NCBI RefSeq assembly: GCF_037201915.1
Contig: NZ_CP147505.1
Location: 2,542,001 to 2,606,000 of the forward strand
DNA: 64,000 nucleotides
Reading direction: 5' to 3'
DNA from: Haloplanus sp. CK5-1
GTDB taxonomy: Archaea; Halobacteriota; Halobacteria; Halobacteriales; Haloferacaceae
In this document: positions 5,796 to 47,241 of the stretch, in pieces
How the letters are laid out: the number at the start of each line of letters is the position of its first letter
Numbering within the stretch: the stretch's first letter is position 1
Program-made: the position numbers and the translations under genes
The notes under the pieces: model-generated
Database searches by the model: none
The model's input: only the letters and a program-made list of their open reading frames with translations
Told to the model about the DNA's origin: nothing

Positions 5796-6864
5796 GAGGG
5801 TGTCATAGAACAGTTCGCATACCAAAGAGCAGGGTGAACGCTGAGGTGGAATGAGTTCAGCGACCCTGCAAGATGATCCTTCGGTAGAATCGTTCTTCAA
5901 TGCCGTGGAAACGGAGACGTTGGCGTTGTTCGAGCACCTCTCCTTCGAGTTTCTTGAAGGGTTCGACGTGTTCGCCCCGGCGGAGACGGGGCGAACACGA
6001 GATCTTGAGCCGCCCGAGATGATGCGTGGCTTTCTCCATTGCTATTACAAGAACATCTACGGTATCCGTCCGGTTGCACGAGAACTGAACAACACCGTTG
6101 TCTGGCTCAGCTGTAGCTTCGATCGACCGCCGTCGAGAGACGCGGTCGATCGATTCCTCACTGATCTTGAGCACGTTGTTGACCGGGTCTTCGACCATCT
6201 CGTCGAGCAGGCCGCCTTGCGGGGCCTGCTCGACTTGACGTATTCTATCGATTCAACCGACGTGAGAGCGATGCCCGCCGATCCAGACGCATCGAAGTGC
6301 TATGATCCAACCGATGACGAGTACTACTACGGCTACGGCTGCACGATCGTCTCAACCGGGCAAAAGATCCCGATTGCAGCCGAGTTCACCGAGAGCAAAC
6401 AAGCACCAGAAGAGACGGCGATGCGCGTCACGCGTGACGCGCTCGCCGTCGGGAAACCGATGTGGATGCTTGGAGACAGTGCCTACGACACGCTCGACTG
6501 GCACGACCACCTGCTGGCCGCAGGGGTCGTGCCAGTCGCTCCGTACAATCCACGAAACACCGACGACCCGAAAGATATCGAGTACAGGGTAGAAGACCGC
6601 ATTGAAAAACACAGCAACGACGTTCAGCTGAAGCAATCAACGCTAGACGAGACGTACAACCGCCGGAGTGGCGTCGAACGAACCAACGAATCAGTCAAGG
6701 GCTGCGGCCTCGGGCGAACGCACGCCCGAGGCCGCGTCCATGCACGAGCGCAGGTGTTCCTCGCGTTGTGTCTGCGCCTCGTCGTCGCAATCACCAACTA
6801 CGAACGCGGAGACAATCCGGGAAGCACAATCATCACGGTGTGAGAAGAGTTCTATGACACCCTC
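5796..6864 (+). mobile_element. 1069-bp DDE insertion sequence, copy 1
   Basis: The element is bounded by a terminal inverted repeat beginning GAGGGTGTCATAGAAC and encodes one transposase. Five copies occur in the window. Copies 1 and 5 have a Met-Ser transposase start, copies 2-4 Met-Arg. This copy alone lacks a target duplication: the left flank ends GGCGACT and the right begins TCTCTGT. One side has therefore been rearranged or deleted after insertion. Confidence 0.95.
5851..6843 (+). CDS. DDE transposase (330 aa), copy 1
   Basis: This is the single transposase of the 1069-bp IS. It catalyses strand transfer of the element. A DDE triad is visible: Asp in SIDSTDVRA, Asp in LGDSAYDT and Glu in GVERTNESVKG, followed by the arginine-rich tail typical of IS4/IS5-type enzymes. 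The family within IS4/IS5 is not certain; the 8-bp duplications at two copies recall the ISH1 group of IS5. The gene contains six long perfect inverted repeats of 12-20 bp (5967-5999, 6119-6153, 6202-6234, 6423-6442, 6495-6538, 6704-6735), unusual for a coding sequence. The ATG follows the left inverted repeat by about 30 bp. Confidence 0.95.
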   Translation: MSSATLQDDPSVESFFNAVETETLALFEHLSFEFLEGFDVFAPAETGRTRDLEPPEMMRGFLHCYYKNIYGIRPVARELNNTVVWLSCSFDRPPSRDAVDRFLTDLEHVVDRVFDHLVEQAALRGLLDLTYSIDSTDVRAMPADPDASKCYDPTDDEYYYGYGCTIVSTGQKIPIAAEFTESKQAPEETAMRVTRDALAVGKPMWMLGDSAYDTLDWHDHLLAAGVVPVAPYNPRNTDDPKDIEYRVEDRIEKHSNDVQLKQSTLDETYNRRSGVERTNESVKGCGLGRTHARGRVHARAQVFLALCLRLVVAITNYERGDNPGSTIITV

Positions 6865-10021: not shown

Positions 10022-11090
10022 GAGGGTGTCATAGAACAGTTCGCATACCAAAGAGCAGGGTGAACGCTGAGGTGGAATGCGTTCAGCGACCCTGCAAGAT
10101 GATCCTTCGGTAGAATCGTTCTTCAATGCCGTGGAAACGGAGACGTTGGCGTTGTTCGAGCACCTCTCCTTCGAGTTTCTTGAAGGGTTCGACGTGTTCG
10201 CCCCGGCGGAGACGGGGCGAACACGAGATCTTGAGCCGCCCGAGATGATGCGTGGCTTTCTCCATTGCTATTACAAGAACATCTACGGTATCCGTCCGGT
10301 TGCACGAGAACTGAACAACACCGTTGTCTGGCTCAGCTGTAGCTTCGATCGACCGCCGTCGAGAGACGCGGTCGATCGATTCCTCACTGATCTTGAGCAC
10401 GTTGTTGACCGGGTCTTCGACCATCTCGTCGAGCAGGCCGCCTTGCGGGGCCTGCTCGACTTGACGTATTCTATCGATTCAACCGACGTGAGAGCGATGC
10501 CCGCCGATCCAGACGCATCGAAGTGCTATGATCCAACCGATGACGAGTACTACTACGGCTACGGCTGCACGATCGTCTCAACCGGGCAAAAGATCCCGAT
10601 TGCAGCCGAGTTCACCGAGAGCAAACAAGCACCAGAAGAGACGGCGATGCGCGTCACGCGTGACGCGCTCGCCGTCGGGAAACCGATGTGGATGCTTGGA
10701 GACAGTGCCTACGACACGCTCGACTGGCACGACCACCTGCTGGCCGCAGGGGTCGTGCCAGTCGCTCCGTACAATCCACGAAACACCGACGACCCGAAAG
10801 ATATCGAGTACAGGGTAGAAGACCGCATTGAAAAACACAGCAACGACGTTCAGCTGAAGCAATCAACGCTAGACGAGACGTACAACCGCCGGAGTGGCGT
10901 CGAACGAACCAACGAATCAGTCAAGGGCTGCGGCCTCGGGCGAACGCACGCCCGAGGCCGCGTCCATGCACGAGCGCAGGTGTTCCTCGCGTTGTGTCTG
11001 CGCCTCGTCGTCGCAATCACCAACTACGAACGCGGAGACAATCCGGGAAGCACAATCATCACGGTGTGAGAAGAGTTCTATGACACCCTC
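10022..11090 (+). mobile_element. 1069-bp DDE insertion sequence, copy 2
   Basis: The element has the same ends as copy 1 and is flanked by a 6-bp direct repeat TAGTTG (10016-10021 and 11091-11096). It interrupts the GIY-YIG gene and is inserted antisense to it. Confidence 0.97.
10077..11069 (+). CDS. DDE transposase (330 aa), copy 2
   Basis: The protein matches copy 1 except that residue 2 is Arg instead of Ser (ATGCGT against ATGAGT). The same Arg variant is present in copies 3 and 4, so these three share a more recent common source. The frame is intact and the element looks active. Confidence 0.95.
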   Translation: MRSATLQDDPSVESFFNAVETETLALFEHLSFEFLEGFDVFAPAETGRTRDLEPPEMMRGFLHCYYKNIYGIRPVARELNNTVVWLSCSFDRPPSRDAVDRFLTDLEHVVDRVFDHLVEQAALRGLLDLTYSIDSTDVRAMPADPDASKCYDPTDDEYYYGYGCTIVSTGQKIPIAAEFTESKQAPEETAMRVTRDALAVGKPMWMLGDSAYDTLDWHDHLLAAGVVPVAPYNPRNTDDPKDIEYRVEDRIEKHSNDVQLKQSTLDETYNRRSGVERTNESVKGCGLGRTHARGRVHARAQVFLALCLRLVVAITNYERGDNPGSTIITV

Positions 11091-13573: not shown

Positions 13574-14887
13574 TCAGTTGAACTCGTCAAGCGAACTGTC
13601 GATAGTCGTTTGCGTGTTGTCGCCCGCGTAGGCGTCGTCCGGCAGGATTTGACGGACGCGGTGTCGGAAGAAGACGCGCCGGTAGCGTCGCCGCCGTTCT
13701 GACGTGAGGTAGAACTCCCGGACCGAAACGGGATCGGACGCACCTTGCTCCTCAGCGAGTTTGCCTGCTGCCTCCAAGAGATCGGTCTCCGCGTCAGCCA
13801 AGATGTTATAATAGAACGACCGGCCGTGCTTGGGGGTGGCAAGTTCCCCGTCGATCGTTACGTCTGCCCTTCGACACAGGGTTTTGAAGCGCAGGCGCGC
13901 CTGTTTGGCACACAACGATTCTCGGTGTGCTGAATCACTCGGGTAGAGGTATCCGTTCCAGTTTGGCTGCTGAGCGCGTTCATCGAGGAGACCAGCAAGC
14001 GCCTCAAGACCAAAGATGAGCGAAACCTCGCCTTGACCGTTTTTGCGCTCTCGGTCTCCGAATTTGATTTTGGGGTCGTGTTCGTTGAGGTTGATCTGGT
14101 CCACGTGGACTGCTGGCAGTTCTTTCGTCCGAACGCCCCAAACGCAGTATCCAATCACCAGCATTCGTTCTGCATCTGTCTCCGCGACCAGCCACAGTCG
14201 CCTGACTTGGTCACCAGTCAGGGAGGTCGGCTCGGTACTCCAGTCCCATCGGAACTCAGCCTCTATTCCGTCCATCGGGTCATACGCGATACGGCCCGAC
14301 CGGTCAAGCCATTCAAGAAACCGGTGTGCAGCACGCAAGTGGTGGTGTGCTGAATCGTCCGAGATTAACTCTGCTCTGAGGGTCTTCCCGACCTCTTTGA
14401 ACGCATGGTAGACGTCAGGTTCGACTGACGGGTCATTTGCAAGCGCTACAACACCGTCGTCTCCATATTCTTCAGCGAACCGCCGTAACACCTGGTCGAG
14501 TCGAGACCGGTTTGTTCGCTTGGTTGAGTCTGCCCAATCTCGACATTCGACGCGATCATCGAGATAGGCCTTCGCTCGCTCTATGGTGGCGACGTCTTCA
14601 ATACTCCAGTCGTATCTCTCCTCGTCCGATCCGCCTGCGGAGGTGAGCAGAATGAAAAACTCGGGTGTCCCCATCTCGTGTTTCTCGCGGAGAACCCATC
14701 GCAGGTGGGAGTATCCGTTGTCAGTCAGCCACCGTACTGTTGGATAGTCCCGATGTGATTGCGGCTCCTGATCTCTCCATTCCGCCAGGAGTTCTTCCCC
14801 GATGTCTTGGAGTGCGACCAAGTCGTGACTCCAGTCCTGATACTCTCGGGTCTTATCCGAATCGTTCTCTTCTGAACGGTTAGGCAT
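13574..14887 (-). CDS. Tyrosine recombinase-like protein, partner of recombinase 3
   Basis: The 437-aa product resembles a diverged phage-type integrase. A SAM-like domain occupies about residues 100-210 (STKRTNRSRLDQVLRRF). The catalytic half holds WGVRTKELPAVHVDQI with the expected first arginine, HGRSFYYNIL at the HxxR position (reading HGRS, so atypical) and EFYLTSERRRRYRR near the end, where the tyrosine would be. The unusual motifs mean activity is uncertain. It is the first gene of the pair with 12353-13531, about 40 bp apart. The start ATG (MPNRSEEN) follows an AT-rich intergenic region that probably contains the promoter. Confidence 0.65.
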   Translation of the reverse strand: MPNRSEENDSDKTREYQDWSHDLVALQDIGEELLAEWRDQEPQSHRDYPTVRWLTDNGYSHLRWVLREKHEMGTPEFFILLTSAGGSDEERYDWSIEDVATIERAKAYLDDRVECRDWADSTKRTNRSRLDQVLRRFAEEYGDDGVVALANDPSVEPDVYHAFKEVGKTLRAELISDDSAHHHLRAAHRFLEWLDRSGRIAYDPMDGIEAEFRWDWSTEPTSLTGDQVRRLWLVAETDAERMLVIGYCVWGVRTKELPAVHVDQINLNEHDPKIKFGDRERKNGQGEVSLIFGLEALAGLLDERAQQPNWNGYLYPSDSAHRESLCAKQARLRFKTLCRRADVTIDGELATPKHGRSFYYNILADAETDLLEAAGKLAEEQGASDPVSVREFYLTSERRRRYRRVFFRHRVRQILPDDAYAGDNTQTTIDSSLDEFN

Positions 14888-16626: not shown

Positions 16627-16962
16627 ATGGATGAGACGTATCGCGTAGAGGAACATACGGGGAATTCGGCCCACCCCTCCGCCGAGGACGTTATCGAACT
16701 CGCCTTGGAACGAGCGGCTGATTCCCGACCGGAACAGGATCCGGACGCCCACTTCGACCGATACGTCAGCACCGCTGTCGAAGCGCATAGCAAATCTGCA
16801 GTTACCGAGTGTATCCGTCTCGTCCTCGTTGAGGGGCTCACCCAACGCTCCGCTGGCGTCGAAGCCTTTGGCGAAGAAGACTACGTCCGCGGGATCGAGG
16901 TCGGCGTCGCCAGTCGTTCCTATCTCCAGGAATTCCTTGAGGAGCAAGCAACCGAGTCGTGA
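16627..16962 (+). CDS. Small hypothetical helical protein
   Basis: The 111-aa acidic protein is mostly helical (EDVIELALERAADS, AVTECIRLVLVEGL, SRSYLQEFLEEQ). No family is recognised. Its divergence from 16183-16524 and its place next to the catalytic-only recombinase fit a small regulatory gene, but there is no direct evidence. Confidence 0.5.
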   Translation: MDETYRVEEHTGNSAHPSAEDVIELALERAADSRPEQDPDAHFDRYVSTAVEAHSKSAVTECIRLVLVEGLTQRSAGVEAFGEEDYVRGIEVGVASRSYLQEFLEEQATES

Positions 16963-17000: not shown

Positions 17001-17032
17001 AACTTTGGAGTCTGTTTGTGGACTCCAAAGTT
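17001..17032. repeat. Perfect 12-8-12 inverted repeat upstream of a recombinase gene
   Basis: Arms AACTTTGGAGTC (17001-17012) and GACTCCAAAGTT (17021-17032) are exact reverse complements around the 8-bp spacer TGTTTGTG. Arm and spacer lengths are those of core sites used by tyrosine recombinases, and a catalytic-domain recombinase starts 45 bp downstream. Part of the arm (TCCAAAGTTC) recurs inside that gene at 17096-17105. A hairpin terminator for the gene at 16627-16962 is an alternative, but no T-run follows. Confidence 0.6.
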
Positions 17033-17077
17033 CAAGTCCCCATGGCCCGTGATGGTATATAAAGAGGCTTCGTTATA

Positions 17078-17695
17078 ATGAGCGCTCCTGCAGATTCCAA
17101 AGTTCGTGCGAAAGTATGGCTCACTCCAGACCAAGTCGAAGTACTCCGATCGGCCTGTTACGCGACAGGTGCAGAGTATCTCCAACAACGCAACGAAGCC
17201 ATCATTGCGTTTACGTACGATACCGGACTTCGAGTCGGAGAACTCGTCCAAGTGGATATCTCACTGCTTCGGAGCAACAACTCGGAACTCTATCTGCCAA
17301 CAGAGATCCAGAAAGACTACCCCAACGAGAACTCGCCACCGCCGGTAACGCTCGAACTGGCGGACGATACTGCACGATTGCTGTCGGCCTACCTCACCAA
17401 TCGATGGAAGGAATCACCAGCGCTGTTCCCATCTCGTTCCTCAGACCGAATTTCCGAGCAGGGCGTCCGGAATATGCTTCACAAAGTGGCTGAAGCAGCA
17501 GCAGTGCGCCCATACAAAATTGACGGCAGTCGCGGTGATGCCGGTGACGTGACACCGCATGCGCTCCGACATGGTGTTGCCTACCGGATGATGAACGAAG
17601 AAGATGAGAACACGCTCTACGACGTCCGCAATCGGCTTCGTCACCGGAGTATCCAGACGACCGAACGGATCTATGATCACCTGCTGAAGGTCTAA
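17078..17695 (+). CDS. Catalytic-domain-only tyrosine recombinase (XerC/D-like)
   Basis: The 205-aa protein consists almost only of the tyrosine-recombinase catalytic domain. It has the first arginine in TGLRVGEL, the HxxR box HALRHG, a second His/Arg motif in LRHRSIQTTE and the nucleophile tyrosine in ERIYDHLL. The usual N-terminal core-binding domain is missing, and a shorter alternative start would only remove more. A TATA-like TATATAAA at 17056-17063 precedes it. The 12-8-12 repeat just upstream is a plausible substrate. Such short recombinases in archaea may resolve dimers or invert segments. Role inferred. Confidence 0.85.
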   Translation: MSAPADSKVRAKVWLTPDQVEVLRSACYATGAEYLQQRNEAIIAFTYDTGLRVGELVQVDISLLRSNNSELYLPTEIQKDYPNENSPPPVTLELADDTARLLSAYLTNRWKESPALFPSRSSDRISEQGVRNMLHKVAEAAAVRPYKIDGSRGDAGDVTPHALRHGVAYRMMNEEDENTLYDVRNRLRHRSIQTTERIYDHLLKV

Positions 17696-17824: not shown

Positions 17825-19234
17825 ATGCGTATCGCGTTCGATGATGGAACTCTCCTGATCGAAGACGCGCCTGACACCGTCCCCTATGCGGAGTGGGACG
17901 ACCGCGTTGACGAGTATCGAGCGCAAGCGCACCATTATCGAGCCCTGCGGGCGTGGGCCGGAGAAATCGACGGGCAAGCAACCTTGGACGAGGCCGCGGC
18001 AGCTGTGGAGACCGTCGATGACGCAGCACGGTCGTACCGTGACCTCCACCTGACACCCACGGTGTCTATCGAACCGCGCGACTATCAACAGGCCGCGTTA
18101 GCAGCCTGGACCGACCACAACCGCCGGGGGAGTGTCGTTCTTCCGACCGGCAGCGGGAAGACATTCCTGGCCGTCCAGGCTATCGCCGACGCCGGTGTGA
18201 GTTCCCTCGTCGTCGTCCCGACGATCGACCTCATGAACCAGTGGCATGCCACACTCACCAACGCCTTCGGTACGCAACTGCCGGACGGTGTCGGTGTCCT
18301 CGGCGGCGGCAGCCACACCGTGACCGACCTGACGGTAACGACGTACGATTCAGCGTATCGTTACATCAACGAGTACGGGGATCAATTCGGCCTGCTCGTC
18401 GTCGATGAGGTGCACCACCTGCCAGCGCCAACCTACCAGCAGATTCCCGAAATGACGATTGCTCCGTATCGACTCGGGCTCACCGCTACATACGAGCGGG
18501 CAGACGGGCAACACGAGGTCTTGGATGAGCTGATCGGCCCTGTCGTCTACGAAGAAGACGTCGATGAACTGGCGGGCGAGTATCTCAGCGAATACGAAAC
18601 GATCCATCTGCAGGTCGAACTCACCCCCGAGGAACGCGAGCGATACGACGAGGAGTACCAGATCTACCGCGACTACGTCGATACCCACGACTTCGACCTC
18701 TGGAAGGAGGAAGGCTATCAGGAGTTCCTCAAACGCACCTCGTACGACCCGCACGGACGGCGCGCGCTGATCGCCAAGCAGCGCGCCGAGGAAATCGCCC
18801 GCACTGCCGCGAAAAAACTCGATACGCTTGACAACCTTCTGAAACGCCATCACGACGACCGAACGATCATCTTCACCGCGAACAACGACTTCGCGTACGA
18901 CATTTCCAAAGAATTCGTTGTGCCGTGCATCACCCACCAGACCGATACGGACGAGCGCACCGACATCTTGGAGCGGTTCCGCACCGGCGAGTACTCGATG
19001 CTCGTCACCTCGCAAGTCCTTGACGAGGGCATCGACGTGCCAGCCGCGAACGTCGGCATCATTCTCTCGGGCAGTGCGTCGAAACGCCAGTACGCCCAAC
19101 GCCTTGGCCGTATCCTCCGGCCGACCGACGACCGGCAAGCCGCTCGCCTCTACGAGATCATTACTGACGAGACGATGGAGCAATACGTCTCCCAACACCG
19201 CCGACAGGGGGTATCCACCAGTGCTGACAGCTGA
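17825..19234 (+). CDS. XPB/Rad25-type SF2 helicase
   Basis: This 469-aa superfamily 2 DNA helicase has a short N-terminal damage-recognition-like domain. The Walker A box is LPTGSGKT (about residue 107), Walker B is VVDEVHHL (about 194), motif III is LTATYERADG and motif VI is QRLGRILRP (about 427). Archaeal XPB unwinds DNA near lesions and works with the nuclease Bax1, whose gene overlaps the end of this one by 14 bp. The pair is a complete XPB-Bax1 repair module, here in an accessory setting. The region between the two helicase lobes (RERYDEEYQIYRDYVD) contains the helical thumb-like insertion usual in XPB. Confidence 0.92.
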   Translation: MRIAFDDGTLLIEDAPDTVPYAEWDDRVDEYRAQAHHYRALRAWAGEIDGQATLDEAAAAVETVDDAARSYRDLHLTPTVSIEPRDYQQAALAAWTDHNRRGSVVLPTGSGKTFLAVQAIADAGVSSLVVVPTIDLMNQWHATLTNAFGTQLPDGVGVLGGGSHTVTDLTVTTYDSAYRYINEYGDQFGLLVVDEVHHLPAPTYQQIPEMTIAPYRLGLTATYERADGQHEVLDELIGPVVYEEDVDELAGEYLSEYETIHLQVELTPEERERYDEEYQIYRDYVDTHDFDLWKEEGYQEFLKRTSYDPHGRRALIAKQRAEEIARTAAKKLDTLDNLLKRHHDDRTIIFTANNDFAYDISKEFVVPCITHQTDTDERTDILERFRTGEYSMLVTSQVLDEGIDVPAANVGIILSGSASKRQYAQRLGRILRPTDDRQAARLYEIITDETMEQYVSQHRRQGVSTSADS

Positions 19235-20573
19235 CCTGGCCCGCTCGCGCCGGCGAAACGGAACGGTCTCGCCCCTGTTCATCGATCCCGACGACCAGCA
19301 GTATCGGGAGACAGCACAGGAGCTCATCCAGATCTTCGAAGACAATCTTGGGGAACCCAAAGGCGAGTTAGAAGAGACGATCGACCAACTCACAGTCGCG
19401 GATACGGATTACAAGATCATCCAGGGATTGGCGAAACTGTTGTATGACGAAAGCGAGTTCGCCACCGTCGCTGCCGCTGCTCCACGCGAGATTCGGCAGC
19501 GGTTATTCGAAAAGGCAAACGCGTCGTATCCCATTGTCCGACAACCGACTCTCGGTGAGGACACGCAGAAACTGGCGGTCTACAGTACTGTGGCCGATCA
19601 GCTCGGCATCTCGCTCGAAGAGTGCTATCAGGGGATGTATGCGGACCTTGCGGACAACAAGCGACTCGTTCGGTTCGGCGACCGCGTTGCCGACGCGTAT
19701 GAGGCATCGGACGACGGGACGACGACAACGCGACTGACAGGCGATAGCGAAGAATCCTACGCGGACGACACAGTCAGTGTCGAGTGGCTGCTCACACGGT
19801 ACAACCTCGCGCTAGCCCAAGCGGTGCTGTACGACGCGACGCGGATGCAGATTCGCGTGTGGGACCACTTCAGCACCGTGTTCAGTTACGTGAAGCTGTT
19901 CGGGTTGATGCATCGGATCTACCCCATTGACGAGACCGGGAATCGCGTCCCGAGTACGGACGTCGCAGATGGGTATGAAGCGATTTTGGATGGCCCCGCA
20001 TCGCTATTCTCGCAAACACAGAAATACGGAATCCGGATGGCGAATTTCCTCCCGGTATTGCCGTTATGCGACCGATGGGAGATGCACGCAGACATCCTCG
20101 CAGACGACGCCGGACCGCAGGATACGACGCTCTCCTTTGACCTCGACCACACTGACGGTCTCTCGTCGCATTATACTGCGCAGGACGACTTCGATAGCGA
20201 CGTGGAGCGCACGCTCGCCCGGAAATGGGATCGGGCAACCACGGAGTGGGACCTCGTCCGGGAAGATGACGTGCTGGATTTGGGCGCTGAGGTGATGCTT
20301 CCTGACTTCGCCCTCAAACACCCTGACGGGCGGCGGGCACTGCTGGAGATCGTCGGGTTCTGGACACCCGAGTATCTCGATGAGAAGCTGGCGAAGATCA
20401 GGAGCGCAGACCGGGACAATCTGCTCGTCGCGGTTTCCGAGCGGCTGGCCTGTTCAGCAGACGATTTCGCTGGCACGAGCGACCGCCTGCTCTGGTTCAA
20501 ATCCGGCATTCACGTCTATGACGTCGTTGACCTGGCCGAGGAGCACGCCGTTGACACAGCCCGCCGTCACTGA
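19221..20573 (+). CDS. Bax1 (DUF790) nuclease partner of XPB
   Basis: The 450-aa protein matches archaeal Bax1. The C-terminal nuclease core is visible as MLPDFALKHPDGRRALLEIVGFWTPEYL followed by a Lys (DEKLAKI), that is PD...E...K. In known XPB-Bax1 pairs Bax1 cuts DNA opened by the helicase. I chose the GTG at 19221, which overlaps the helicase stop by 14 bp and gives a sensible N-terminus (VLTADLARSRRRNG). The tight overlap implies translational coupling. No unusual residue loss was seen. Confidence 0.9.
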   Translation: MLTADLARSRRRNGTVSPLFIDPDDQQYRETAQELIQIFEDNLGEPKGELEETIDQLTVADTDYKIIQGLAKLLYDESEFATVAAAAPREIRQRLFEKANASYPIVRQPTLGEDTQKLAVYSTVADQLGISLEECYQGMYADLADNKRLVRFGDRVADAYEASDDGTTTTRLTGDSEESYADDTVSVEWLLTRYNLALAQAVLYDATRMQIRVWDHFSTVFSYVKLFGLMHRIYPIDETGNRVPSTDVADGYEAILDGPASLFSQTQKYGIRMANFLPVLPLCDRWEMHADILADDAGPQDTTLSFDLDHTDGLSSHYTAQDDFDSDVERTLARKWDRATTEWDLVREDDVLDLGAEVMLPDFALKHPDGRRALLEIVGFWTPEYLDEKLAKIRSADRDNLLVAVSERLACSADDFAGTSDRLLWFKSGIHVYDVVDLAEEHAVDTARRH

Positions 20574-22893: not shown

Positions 22894-23962
22894 GAGGGTG
22901 TCATAGAACTCTTCTCACACCGTGATGATTGTGCTTCCCGGATTGTCTCCGCGTTCGTAGTTGGTGATTGCGACGACGAGGCGCAGACACAACGCGAGGA
23001 ACACCTGCGCTCGTGCATGGACGCGGCCTCGGGCGTGCGTTCGCCCGAGGCCGCAGCCCTTGACTGATTCGTTGGTTCGTTCGACGCCACTCCGGCGGTT
23101 GTACGTCTCGTCTAGCGTTGATTGCTTCAGCTGAACGTCGTTGCTGTGTTTTTCAATGCGGTCTTCTACCCTGTACTCGATATCTTTCGGGTCGTCGGTG
23201 TTTCGTGGATTGTACGGAGCGACTGGCACGACCCCTGCGGCCAGCAGGTGGTCGTGCCAGTCGAGCGTGTCGTAGGCACTGTCTCCAAGCATCCACATCG
23301 GTTTCCCGACGGCGAGCGCGTCACGCGTGACGCGCATCGCCGTCTCTTCTGGTGCTTGTTTGCTCTCGGTGAACTCGGCTGCAATCGGGATCTTTTGCCC
23401 GGTTGAGACGATCGTGCAGCCGTAGCCGTAGTAGTACTCGTCATCGGTTGGATCATAGCACTTCGATGCGTCTGGATCGGCGGGCATCGCTCTCACGTCG
23501 GTTGAATCGATAGAATACGTCAAGTCGAGCAGGCCCCGCAAGGCGGCCTGCTCGACGAGATGGTCGAAGACCCGGTCAACAACGTGCTCAAGATCAGTGA
23601 GGAATCGATCGACCGCGTCTCTCGACGGCGGTCGATCGAAGCTACAGCTGAGCCAGACAACGGTGTTGTTCAGTTCTCGTGCAACCGGACGGATACCGTA
23701 GATGTTCTTGTAATAGCAATGGAGAAAGCCACGCATCATCTCGGGCGGCTCAAGATCTCGTGTTCGCCCCGTCTCCGCCGGGGCGAACACGTCGAACCCT
23801 TCAAGAAACTCGAAGGAGAGGTGCTCGAACAACGCCAACGTCTCCGTTTCCACGGCATTGAAGAACGATTCTACCGAAGGATCATCTTGCAGGGTCGCTG
23901 AACGCATTCCACCTCAGCGTTCACCCTGCTCTTTGGTATGCGAACTGTTCTATGACACCCTC
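22894..23962 (-). mobile_element. 1069-bp DDE insertion sequence, copy 3
   Basis: Same ends as the other copies, with an 8-bp duplication AGACGTTC (22886-22893 and 23963-23970). It is inserted between the small zinc-ribbon genes and the phosphatase gene. Confidence 0.97.
22915..23907 (-). CDS. DDE transposase (330 aa), copy 3
   Basis: Intact transposase of the Met-Arg variant, identical in protein sequence to copies 2 and 4. The 13-bp inverted repeat over the GCGLGRTHARGR codons is also present here. Confidence 0.95.
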   Translation of the reverse strand: MRSATLQDDPSVESFFNAVETETLALFEHLSFEFLEGFDVFAPAETGRTRDLEPPEMMRGFLHCYYKNIYGIRPVARELNNTVVWLSCSFDRPPSRDAVDRFLTDLEHVVDRVFDHLVEQAALRGLLDLTYSIDSTDVRAMPADPDASKCYDPTDDEYYYGYGCTIVSTGQKIPIAAEFTESKQAPEETAMRVTRDALAVGKPMWMLGDSAYDTLDWHDHLLAAGVVPVAPYNPRNTDDPKDIEYRVEDRIEKHSNDVQLKQSTLDETYNRRSGVERTNESVKGCGLGRTHARGRVHARAQVFLALCLRLVVAITNYERGDNPGSTIITV

Positions 23963-38245: not shown

Positions 38246-39314
38246 GAGGGTGTCATAGAACTCTTCTCACACCGTGATGATTGTGCTTCCCGGATTGTCT
38301 CCGCGTTCGTAGTTGGTGATTGCGACGACGAGGCGCAGACACAACGCGAGGAACACCTGCGCTCGTGCATGGACGCGGCCTCGGGCGTGCGTTCGCCCGA
38401 GGCCGCAGCCCTTGACTGATTCGTTGGTTCGTTCGACGCCACTCCGGCGGTTGTACGTCTCGTCTAGCGTTGATTGCTTCAGCTGAACGTCGTTGCTGTG
38501 TTTTTCAATGCGGTCTTCTACCCTGTACTCGATATCTTTCGGGTCGTCGGTGTTTCGTGGATTGTACGGAGCGACTGGCACGACCCCTGCGGCCAGCAGG
38601 TGGTCGTGCCAGTCGAGCGTGTCGTAGGCACTGTCTCCAAGCATCCACATCGGTTTCCCGACGGCGAGCGCGTCACGCGTGACGCGCATCGCCGTCTCTT
38701 CTGGTGCTTGTTTGCTCTCGGTGAACTCGGCTGCAATCGGGATCTTTTGCCCGGTTGAGACGATCGTGCAGCCGTAGCCGTAGTAGTACTCGTCATCGGT
38801 TGGATCATAGCACTTCGATGCGTCTGGATCGGCGGGCATCGCTCTCACGTCGGTTGAATCGATAGAATACGTCAAGTCGAGCAGGCCCCGCAAGGCGGCC
38901 TGCTCGACGAGATGGTCGAAGACCCGGTCAACAACGTGCTCAAGATCAGTGAGGAATCGATCGACCGCGTCTCTCGACGGCGGTCGATCGAAGCTACAGC
39001 TGAGCCAGACAACGGTGTTGTTCAGTTCTCGTGCAACCGGACGGATACCGTAGATGTTCTTGTAATAGCAATGGAGAAAGCCACGCATCATCTCGGGCGG
39101 CTCAAGATCTCGTGTTCGCCCCGTCTCCGCCGGGGCGAACACGTCGAACCCTTCAAGAAACTCGAAGGAGAGGTGCTCGAACAACGCCAACGTCTCCGTT
39201 TCCACGGCATTGAAGAACGATTCTACCGAAGGATCATCTTGCAGGGTCGCTGAACGCATTCCACCTCAGCGTTCACCCTGCTCTTTGGTATGCGAACTGT
39301 TCTATGACACCCTC
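38246..39314 (-). mobile_element. 1069-bp DDE insertion sequence, copy 4
   Basis: Same ends as the other copies, with an 8-bp duplication ACCACCCT (38238-38245 and 39315-39322). It separates two gene tails of similar end sequence. Confidence 0.97.
38267..39259 (-). CDS. DDE transposase (330 aa), copy 4
   Basis: Intact transposase of the Met-Arg variant, identical in protein sequence to copies 2 and 3. Confidence 0.95.
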   Translation of the reverse strand: MRSATLQDDPSVESFFNAVETETLALFEHLSFEFLEGFDVFAPAETGRTRDLEPPEMMRGFLHCYYKNIYGIRPVARELNNTVVWLSCSFDRPPSRDAVDRFLTDLEHVVDRVFDHLVEQAALRGLLDLTYSIDSTDVRAMPADPDASKCYDPTDDEYYYGYGCTIVSTGQKIPIAAEFTESKQAPEETAMRVTRDALAVGKPMWMLGDSAYDTLDWHDHLLAAGVVPVAPYNPRNTDDPKDIEYRVEDRIEKHSNDVQLKQSTLDETYNRRSGVERTNESVKGCGLGRTHARGRVHARAQVFLALCLRLVVAITNYERGDNPGSTIITV

Positions 39315-46172: not shown

Positions 46173-47241
46173 GAGGGTGTCATAGAACTCTTCTCACACC
46201 GTGATGATTGTGCTTCCCGGATTGTCTCCGCGTTCGTAGTTGGTGATTGCGACGACGAGGCGCAGACACAACGCGAGGAACACCTGCGCTCGTGCATGGA
46301 CGCGGCCTCGGGCGTGCGTTCGCCCGAGGCCGCAGCCCTTGACTGATTCGTTGGTTCGTTCGACGCCACTCCGGCGGTTGTACGTCTCGTCTAGCGTTGA
46401 TTGCTTCAGCTGAACGTCGTTGCTGTGTTTTTCAATGCGGTCTTCTACCCTGTACTCGATATCTTTCGGGTCGTCGGTGTTTCGTGGATTGTACGGAGCG
46501 ACTGGCACGACCCCTGCGGCCAGCAGGTGGTCGTGCCAGTCGAGCGTGTCGTAGGCACTGTCTCCAAGCATCCACATCGGTTTCCCGACGGCGAGCGCGT
46601 CACGCGTGACGCGCATCGCCGTCTCTTCTGGTGCTTGTTTGCTCTCGGTGAACTCGGCTGCAATCGGGATCTTTTGCCCGGTTGAGACGATCGTGCAGCC
46701 GTAGCCGTAGTAGTACTCGTCATCGGTTGGATCATAGCACTTCGATGCGTCTGGATCGGCGGGCATCGCTCTCACGTCGGTTGAATCGATAGAATACGTC
46801 AAGTCGAGCAGGCCCCGCAAGGCGGCCTGCTCGACGAGATGGTCGAAGACCCGGTCAACAACGTGCTCAAGATCAGTGAGGAATCGATCGACCGCGTCTC
46901 TCGACGGCGGTCGATCGAAGCTACAGCTGAGCCAGACAACGGTGTTGTTCAGTTCTCGTGCAACCGGACGGATACCGTAGATGTTCTTGTAATAGCAATG
47001 GAGAAAGCCACGCATCATCTCGGGCGGCTCAAGATCTCGTGTTCGCCCCGTCTCCGCCGGGGCGAACACGTCGAACCCTTCAAGAAACTCGAAGGAGAGG
47101 TGCTCGAACAACGCCAACGTCTCCGTTTCCACGGCATTGAAGAACGATTCTACCGAAGGATCATCTTGCAGGGTCGCTGAACTCATTCCACCTCAGCGTT
47201 CACCCTGCTCTTTGGTATGCGAACTGTTCTATGACACCCTC
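46173..47241 (-). mobile_element. 1069-bp DDE insertion sequence, copy 5
   Basis: Same ends, with a 7-bp duplication TGTATGT (46166-46172 and 47242-47248). It shares the Met-Ser transposase start with copy 1. Confidence 0.96.
46194..47186 (-). CDS. DDE transposase (330 aa), copy 5
   Basis: Intact transposase, identical in protein sequence to copy 1 (Ser at residue 2). Transcription away from the gene at 45458-46150 is not possible: both read on the minus strand, so the IS right end points into that gene. Confidence 0.95.
   Translation of the reverse strand: MSSATLQDDPSVESFFNAVETETLALFEHLSFEFLEGFDVFAPAETGRTRDLEPPEMMRGFLHCYYKNIYGIRPVARELNNTVVWLSCSFDRPPSRDAVDRFLTDLEHVVDRVFDHLVEQAALRGLLDLTYSIDSTDVRAMPADPDASKCYDPTDDEYYYGYGCTIVSTGQKIPIAAEFTESKQAPEETAMRVTRDALAVGKPMWMLGDSAYDTLDWHDHLLAAGVVPVAPYNPRNTDDPKDIEYRVEDRIEKHSNDVQLKQSTLDETYNRRSGVERTNESVKGCGLGRTHARGRVHARAQVFLALCLRLVVAITNYERGDNPGSTIITV

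Follow-up and report, generated by a model that had tools for sequence, protein, structure and literature searches.

A conserved palindromic core beside a catalytic-only tyrosine recombinase gene as a likely site of DNA module exchange in haloarchaea

This study was concerned with a short inverted repeat and the recombinase gene beside it in a 64,000-nucleotide stretch of the Haloplanus sp. CK5-1 genome (NZ_CP147505.1, positions 2,542,001 to 2,606,000), which is called the window here and is numbered from its first base. All features of the locus lie on the forward strand. The repeat occupies 17001-17032 and reads AACTTTGGAGTC-TGTTTGTG-GACTCCAAAGTT, a 12-8-12 layout with a left arm at 17001..17012, a spacer at 17013..17020 and a right arm at 17021..17032; the arms are complementary at 12 of 12 positions. 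The 8-bp spacer is the inferred crossover region, because the crossover at related AACGTC-type cores, described below, maps to the central 8 bp. The ATG of a 205-aa open reading frame (17078..17695) follows the repeat by 45 nt. Within the start of this gene, GATTCCAAAGTTC (17093-17105) is a near copy of the right arm extended by one base, in agreement at 12 of 13 positions. This third half-site has the orientation of the right arm, lies 72 bp from it and occupies codons 6-10. A TATA-like box, GGTATATAAAG (17054..17064), lies between the core and the third half-site, and its promoter role is inferred from sequence. No second copy of the repeat was found in the window at up to 3 mismatches and none of 100 dinucleotide shuffles contained a match, while the arm alone occurs four times in the window at no more than 1 mismatch, against 0.38 expected.

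The protein encoded at 17078..17695 is a tyrosine recombinase that has a catalytic domain only. The PF00589 match spans residues 14-203 of the 205 residues (E=8e-22), and the AlphaFold model predicts one catalytic domain with a mean pLDDT of 87 and disorder in residues 1-10. Together these leave no room for a core-binding domain. The solved structures closest to this fold are XerA, XerH, Tn1549 Int, lambda Int and Cre. Among the homologs described below, R52, R164 and Y199 are conserved in 121 of 121 proteins, and K79, H161 and H189 in 120 of 121 (two of 123 proteins were too short and were left out). Thus, both marks of a tyrosine recombinase, the PF00589 match and the R-K-H-R-H-Y active site, are present. 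Membership in better known families was not supported: the score for XerA (NF040815) was 72 bits against a cut-off of 220, XerC and XerD were likewise far below their cut-offs, and the integron-integrase model TIGR02249 gave 24.9 bits against a cut-off of 265. Archaeal tyrosine recombinase families with a bare PF00589 domain include HSTV2, which has been named as restricted to Halobacteria (PMC8371274); the window recombinase was assigned to none of these families. A sequence-only reading of the window had claimed perfect 12-bp arms around an 8-bp spacer 45 bp before a recombinase gene, a partial arm copy in the gene start, and a recombinase without a core-binding domain. All three claims held.

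Of 391 genomes sampled from the class, 109 contain a homolog of the recombinase (E up to 1e-15), and these represent 47 of 86 genera. A homolog was obtained from 142 of 143 sequences, and removal of 19 of these 142 loci that had identical upstream DNA left 123 distinct loci. The repeat is present in 109 of the 123, allowing no more than 3 mismatches in 11 paired positions, and the third half-site in 100. Conservation beside orthologs, which the sequence-only reading had named as a check on itself, was therefore met very strongly. The repeat occurs without the third half-site beside the homologs of phages phiCh1, phiH and ChaoS9 and at loci L118, L121, L122 and L124.

The distance from the core to the third half-site is closely constrained. 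It is 72 bp in 73 of the 100 loci and 73 bp in 17 (90 of 100 together), 82/83 bp in three, 91/92 bp in four, and 67, 71 and 74 bp in one each, so that the exceptions are mostly displaced outward by about one or two helical turns. When each locus was searched with its own arm over distances of 25-140 bp (n=109, no more than 2 mismatches), matches fell at 72 bp in 68 loci and at 73 bp in 15, and the remainder were single or double occurrences at 41, 57, 67, 71, 82, 83, 91 and 92 bp. With increments near 10 bp, it seems that the half-site must be on the same helical face as the core.

Arm sequences vary from one group of loci to another (for example AAGTT, ACATT, AAACT, GAACATT, GACGTT and GGAAACT), and the copies inside one locus agree. 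The third site at 72/73 bp differs from the arms of its own locus at a mean of 2.2 of 11 positions and from the arms of other loci at 4.3 (n=109). The sets of 109 leave out the 14 of 123 loci with more than 3 arm mismatches. The mean mismatch between left and right arms, 1.38, is biased downwards because the repeat finder picks the best repeat in each 110-bp stretch; the third-site test uses a fixed distance and hence does not have this bias. The three arm copies co-vary while the catalytic residues stay constant. Locus L014 has an in-frame TAA within the third copy and ACG instead of ATG, and the DNA motif is nevertheless preserved; this gene may have a later start or be broken.

Cores of the window type (no more than 2 mismatches) occur at 35 places in the 391 genomes, and one genome matches a reversed control pattern. 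By coordinates, 28 of the 35 adjoin a recombinase gene or pseudogene and seven do not; at least one of these seven is probably a chance match. The window genome has two recombinases, 81% identical and 459 kb apart, each with one core, and a lenient scan of this genome for further cores gave only one chance-like hit. With nothing beyond these two cores, both of them next to their own recombinase, this organism gives no demonstration of module exchange. Two different recombinase-core units lie on one 3.24-Mb contig, many copies are on chromosome-sized contigs, and homologs also reside on circular, complete plasmids (8.9, 10.8 and 18.3 kb). The homologs of phiCh1, phiH and ChaoS9 lie beside or near ParA, with RepH also nearby in phiCh1.

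Comparison of flanking DNA indicated that the core is a boundary at which flanks are exchanged. The recombinase-free cores in genomes G065 (pHLAC01), G284, G149 and G068 have a right flank conserved among them and left flanks that are not. Among AACTTTGG cores, the arm type of the window, all four combinations of left and right flank exist, a four-gamete pattern. The first left type is joined to a recombinase flank in G284:C16 and to an orphan flank in G065A (lefts match at 54 of 78 positions), and the second left type is joined to an orphan flank in G284:C7 and to a recombinase flank in G065:341k (27 of 36). The orphan rights in this set match at 75 of 91 positions and the recombinase rights at 66 of 80. 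As the two left types are unrelated to one another, and likewise the two right types, the DNA shared across combinations is the core alone, about 32 imperfect bp. In addition, G220 is 94% identical to G335/G270 over 4 kb rightwards and the match ends at the left edge of the core, and DL31 plasmid phalar01 resembles the window at the DNA level only from 17001, the first core base, onward. A comparison across all recombinase loci gave 61 pairs whose right flanks reach an identity of at least 88%; in 10 of these pairs the left flanks reach at least 80%, and in 51 they do not exceed 74.5%. The right flanks are coding and their higher conservation comes partly from selection.

Some other comparisons were not used. 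The stretch shared by Deep Lake genomes G003 and G065 fills the entire 12 kb examined, with no boundary at the core. Genome G316 carries inverted orphan cores 10 kb apart (L146:4513 and L146:14542) with 665 bp in common (89%) on the inner side only, and one copy carries roughly 2.8 kb of additional DNA that stops at the core; this pair is suggestive and is not main evidence because the area is repetitive. An attC-like fold of a Halohasta orphan flank received no support.

A second set of sites, with AACGTC-type cores, came from Natronococcus-type genomes. Upstream, loci L090, L097 and L102 each carry another core, which is preceded by a left element of about 105 bp like the one at the recombinase core. 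A search with this element in nine genomes of that genus gave 22 matches in six genomes, 11 of them in G390. Of 21 sites (one of the 22 was left out), eight have recombinase-type flanks, 11 have module-type flanks and two were left unclassified by the script; one of these two is module-like, and the other, G248:C27, is cut by the extraction window and has a recombinase. The clearest case is a filled/empty pair. N. occultus plasmid 2 and G390:C49 are identical over 300 bp and a further 23 bp inside the core, up to and including TTTGGCACAAACT. From there, N. occultus enters a recombinase-type flank (82% to the second core of G390), whereas G390 goes on into a 525-bp module that is followed by another element, core and recombinase. 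This places the exchange in CACAAACT, the central 8 bp of the core. Only one clear pair of this kind was obtained. When 18 AACGTC-type sites were compared pairwise, 33 pairs were similar on at least one side and only one, C51a/G392, on both; for example, N36 and C49b have identical left DNA and unrelated right flanks. Sites of this type with homologous recombinase flanks almost never have common DNA on the opposite side of the core. The 525-bp module contains one 85-aa open reading frame, and larger core-to-core gaps contain several. The AACGTC-type modules in L215 and L212 carry small open reading frames, some of which appear by eye to be membrane-protein-like or winged-helix-like. Also, one core with its 105-bp element on N. 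occultus plasmid 2 (L210:17838-18041, about 31861) begins 19 bp past the stop codon of an annotated tyrosine--tRNA ligase gene. The 105-bp element gave no support for an attC-like, single-strand fold, with compensatory change at 0 of 23 predicted pairs in 11 sequences.

The repeat is likely to be a recombination core at which the adjacent recombinase exchanges DNA modules, with the third half-site in an accessory role. This rests on comparative sequence evidence and on no experiment. Conservation, co-variation, phased spacing, an intact active site, flank exchange at the core and one filled/empty pair are shown by sequence; the adjacent recombinase as the agent, modules moving as circles, and bending or looping of promoter DNA by the third half-site are all inferred. 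In the proposed mechanism, two recombinase protomers would bind the two arms and two such cores would pair, and strand exchange in the central 8 bp would combine one site's left half with the right half of the other. DNA modules of some 0.4 to 5 kb have in this view been inserted, removed or swapped at the cores of relatives, so that module borders would be half-cores and, in one genus, the module end would be the conserved 105-bp element. The third half-site would act as an accessory binding site that biases the reaction, represses the recombinase gene, or both. The window copy would be the attI-like form, next to the recombinase, and it gives no evidence of a captured module. As plausible inferences only, the system may in addition resolve dimers of plasmids and proviruses and regulate its own gene through the phased third half-site. 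The sequence-only reading had suggested a site of inversion, resolution or self-regulation. Its recombination-site reading is thus supported by comparative evidence, and resolution and self-regulation remain plausible as inferences. Inversion has no support beyond the two inverted orphan sites in one genome, and module exchange, the best-supported role, was not foreseen.

Several other explanations were weighed against module exchange. The strongest is that the system serves primarily to resolve multimers of plasmids, proviruses or chromosomes, like Cre/loxP of P1 or XerS/difSL, and that module exchange is a by-product at compatible sites, as is thought for Xer pdif modules. In its favor, site and recombinase form a compact single-copy unit like XerS with difSL (PMC5357621), homologs occur on small circular plasmids and near ParA, as well as RepH in phiCh1, and the window genome has one core per recombinase. 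Against it, flank exchange and modules exceed what resolution entails, many copies are on chromosome-sized contigs, and two units share the 3.24-Mb contig. The balance tips against resolution as the primary role, although the two functions are not mutually exclusive and may coexist. A weaker objection is that the flank exchange came from ordinary homologous recombination between repeated DNA and not from the recombinase. In Natronococcus-type genomes the roughly 105 bp to the left of the core recurs together with it (22 matches, in six of nine genomes) and is long enough, so that recombination between its copies could mimic exchange. However, the crossover in the filled/empty pair lies to the right of the entire 105-bp element, in the core center, and the flanks of AACTTTGG cores are unrelated on both sides, with only about 32 imperfect bp in common. 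This explanation is considered unlikely, though it is not fully excluded in the AACGTC system.

Two further alternatives dispense with recombination at the repeat. Under the first, the repeat is only an operator: the recombinase, or another protein, would bind the repeat and third half-site, loop the promoter and repress the recombinase gene. The TATA-like box between the two elements and the clustering of spacings at 72/73, 82/83 and 91/92 bp, in steps of roughly one helical turn, favor this, and TnpI of Tn5401 controls its own gene by binding its own recombination site (PMC7157771). However, there are cores without a recombinase or promoter that have exchanged flanks, and the active site is invariant. 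An operator function alone is therefore very improbable, while it remains possible as an additional role. The other alternative, which the sequence-only reading had itself raised, is that the repeat serves the upstream gene as an intrinsic terminator. Its perfect palindromic form and its position, 38 bp past the stop codon of the 111-aa gene, would fit; against this, no T run follows the palindrome. In addition, the repeat is kept beside unrelated upstream DNA and co-varies with the copy inside the gene, so a terminator is not supported and can be all but dismissed.

The site invites comparison with integron attI and cassettes, Xer pdif modules and the Tn4430 irs, and it fails some of the tested features of the first two. 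Like an integron, it has a recombinase gene with an adjoining site where modules are stacked, a conserved element and core at module ends (in one genus), and an extra half-site on the recombinase side only. Insertion of a cassette between the platform site and existing DNA is met by the 525-bp module, in a relative and not in the window. In contrast to integrons, the haloarchaeal enzyme does not reach the cut-off of the integron-integrase model, the core is palindromic as double-stranded DNA, covariation gave no support for a hairpin in the 105-bp element, copies per genome are few and gene orientation is mixed. Archaeal integrons are defined by IntI and a folded attC and have been described in other archaea (PMC9668308); no word starting with "halo" occurs in that text. 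Acinetobacter pdif modules have short recombination sites at their borders and occur on both plasmids and chromosomes (PMC12907356), and the haloarchaeal modules resemble them in both respects. However, the haloarchaeal system has a single catalytic-only recombinase that is encoded beside the site and scores far under the XerA/C/D cut-offs, an 8-bp spacer and a third half-site. Recombinase and site as a single unit are also seen in XerS/difSL. The loxP site has the same arm-8-arm geometry as the haloarchaeal core and is not known to have a third half-site, and Cre and XerS have a core-binding domain, unlike the window recombinase. The TnpI irs of Tn4430/Tn5401 likewise has a palindromic core upstream of a tyrosine recombinase gene with direct-repeat accessory half-sites (PMC7157771). 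This layout, with an accessory half-site in the same orientation beside the recombinase gene, is met in 100 of 123 loci. DR1 and DR2 are part of the Tn4430 irs, and TnpI binding regulates Tn5401 (PMC7157771); the haloarchaeal site differs in having one accessory half-site, 72 bp off within the coding start, and no Tn3 transposase came to incidental notice around the window copy.

Int2 of haloviruses phiCh1, phiH and ChaoS9 is a homolog of the window recombinase (46-47% identity), and its gene likewise has an inverted repeat immediately upstream. This repeat lies 42-50 bp before the homologous gene start and has no third half-site. No function for Int2 was found in the halovirus literature consulted. 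"Inversion 2" of phiH/phiCh1 (PMC6210493) was considered as core recombination and rejected, as its near end is about 0.47 kb from the Int2 core.

A bolder reading, which at present could as easily prove wrong as right, is that the locus represents a haloarchaeal gene-capture platform built on a recombinase family unrelated to integrons. In this reading, a catalytic-only recombinase and an attI-like site, made of the core and its helically phased half-site, would collect core-ended modules, and many arm specificities would exist, each co-evolving with its own enzyme. No such site or modules in haloarchaea were found in the open-licence literature searched. If true, the reading would explain small-module shuffling in haloarchaeal plasmids and chromosomes and would provide a large set of matched recombinase/site pairs differing in specificity. 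Such pairs would be useful for the study of DNA choice without a core-binding domain and as genome tools for halophiles. The reading also offers a direct test of the role of Int2 in the classic haloviruses.

Several observations concern the surroundings of the locus. Searches for a consistent right-hand end of a mobile element past the recombinase gene and for relatives on viral contigs found neither. The linked 111-aa gene, which has no Pfam match (16627..16962, forward strand), ends 38 bp before the repeat. It lies left of the core in the window and in L001, L004, L005 and L035, and right of the recombinase in L003, L006-L009, L036, L040 and L041. This order was only suggestive of circular permutation and was dropped as proof; a second core was looked for and not found. 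Immediately 3' of the recombinase, an XPB/RAD25-like helicase gene is followed by a gene for a DUF790 protein (17825-20573, forward strand). About 2 kb upstream, a 437-aa protein (13574-14887, reverse strand) has a weak PF00589 match under the cut-off and may be a second, larger integrase. Lastly, five 330-aa open reading frames in the window (5851-6843, 10077-11069, 22915-23907, 38267-39259 and 46194-47186) represent one transposase, with near-identical starts and PF01609 in the one tested; an insertion-rich region thus surrounds the recombinase.
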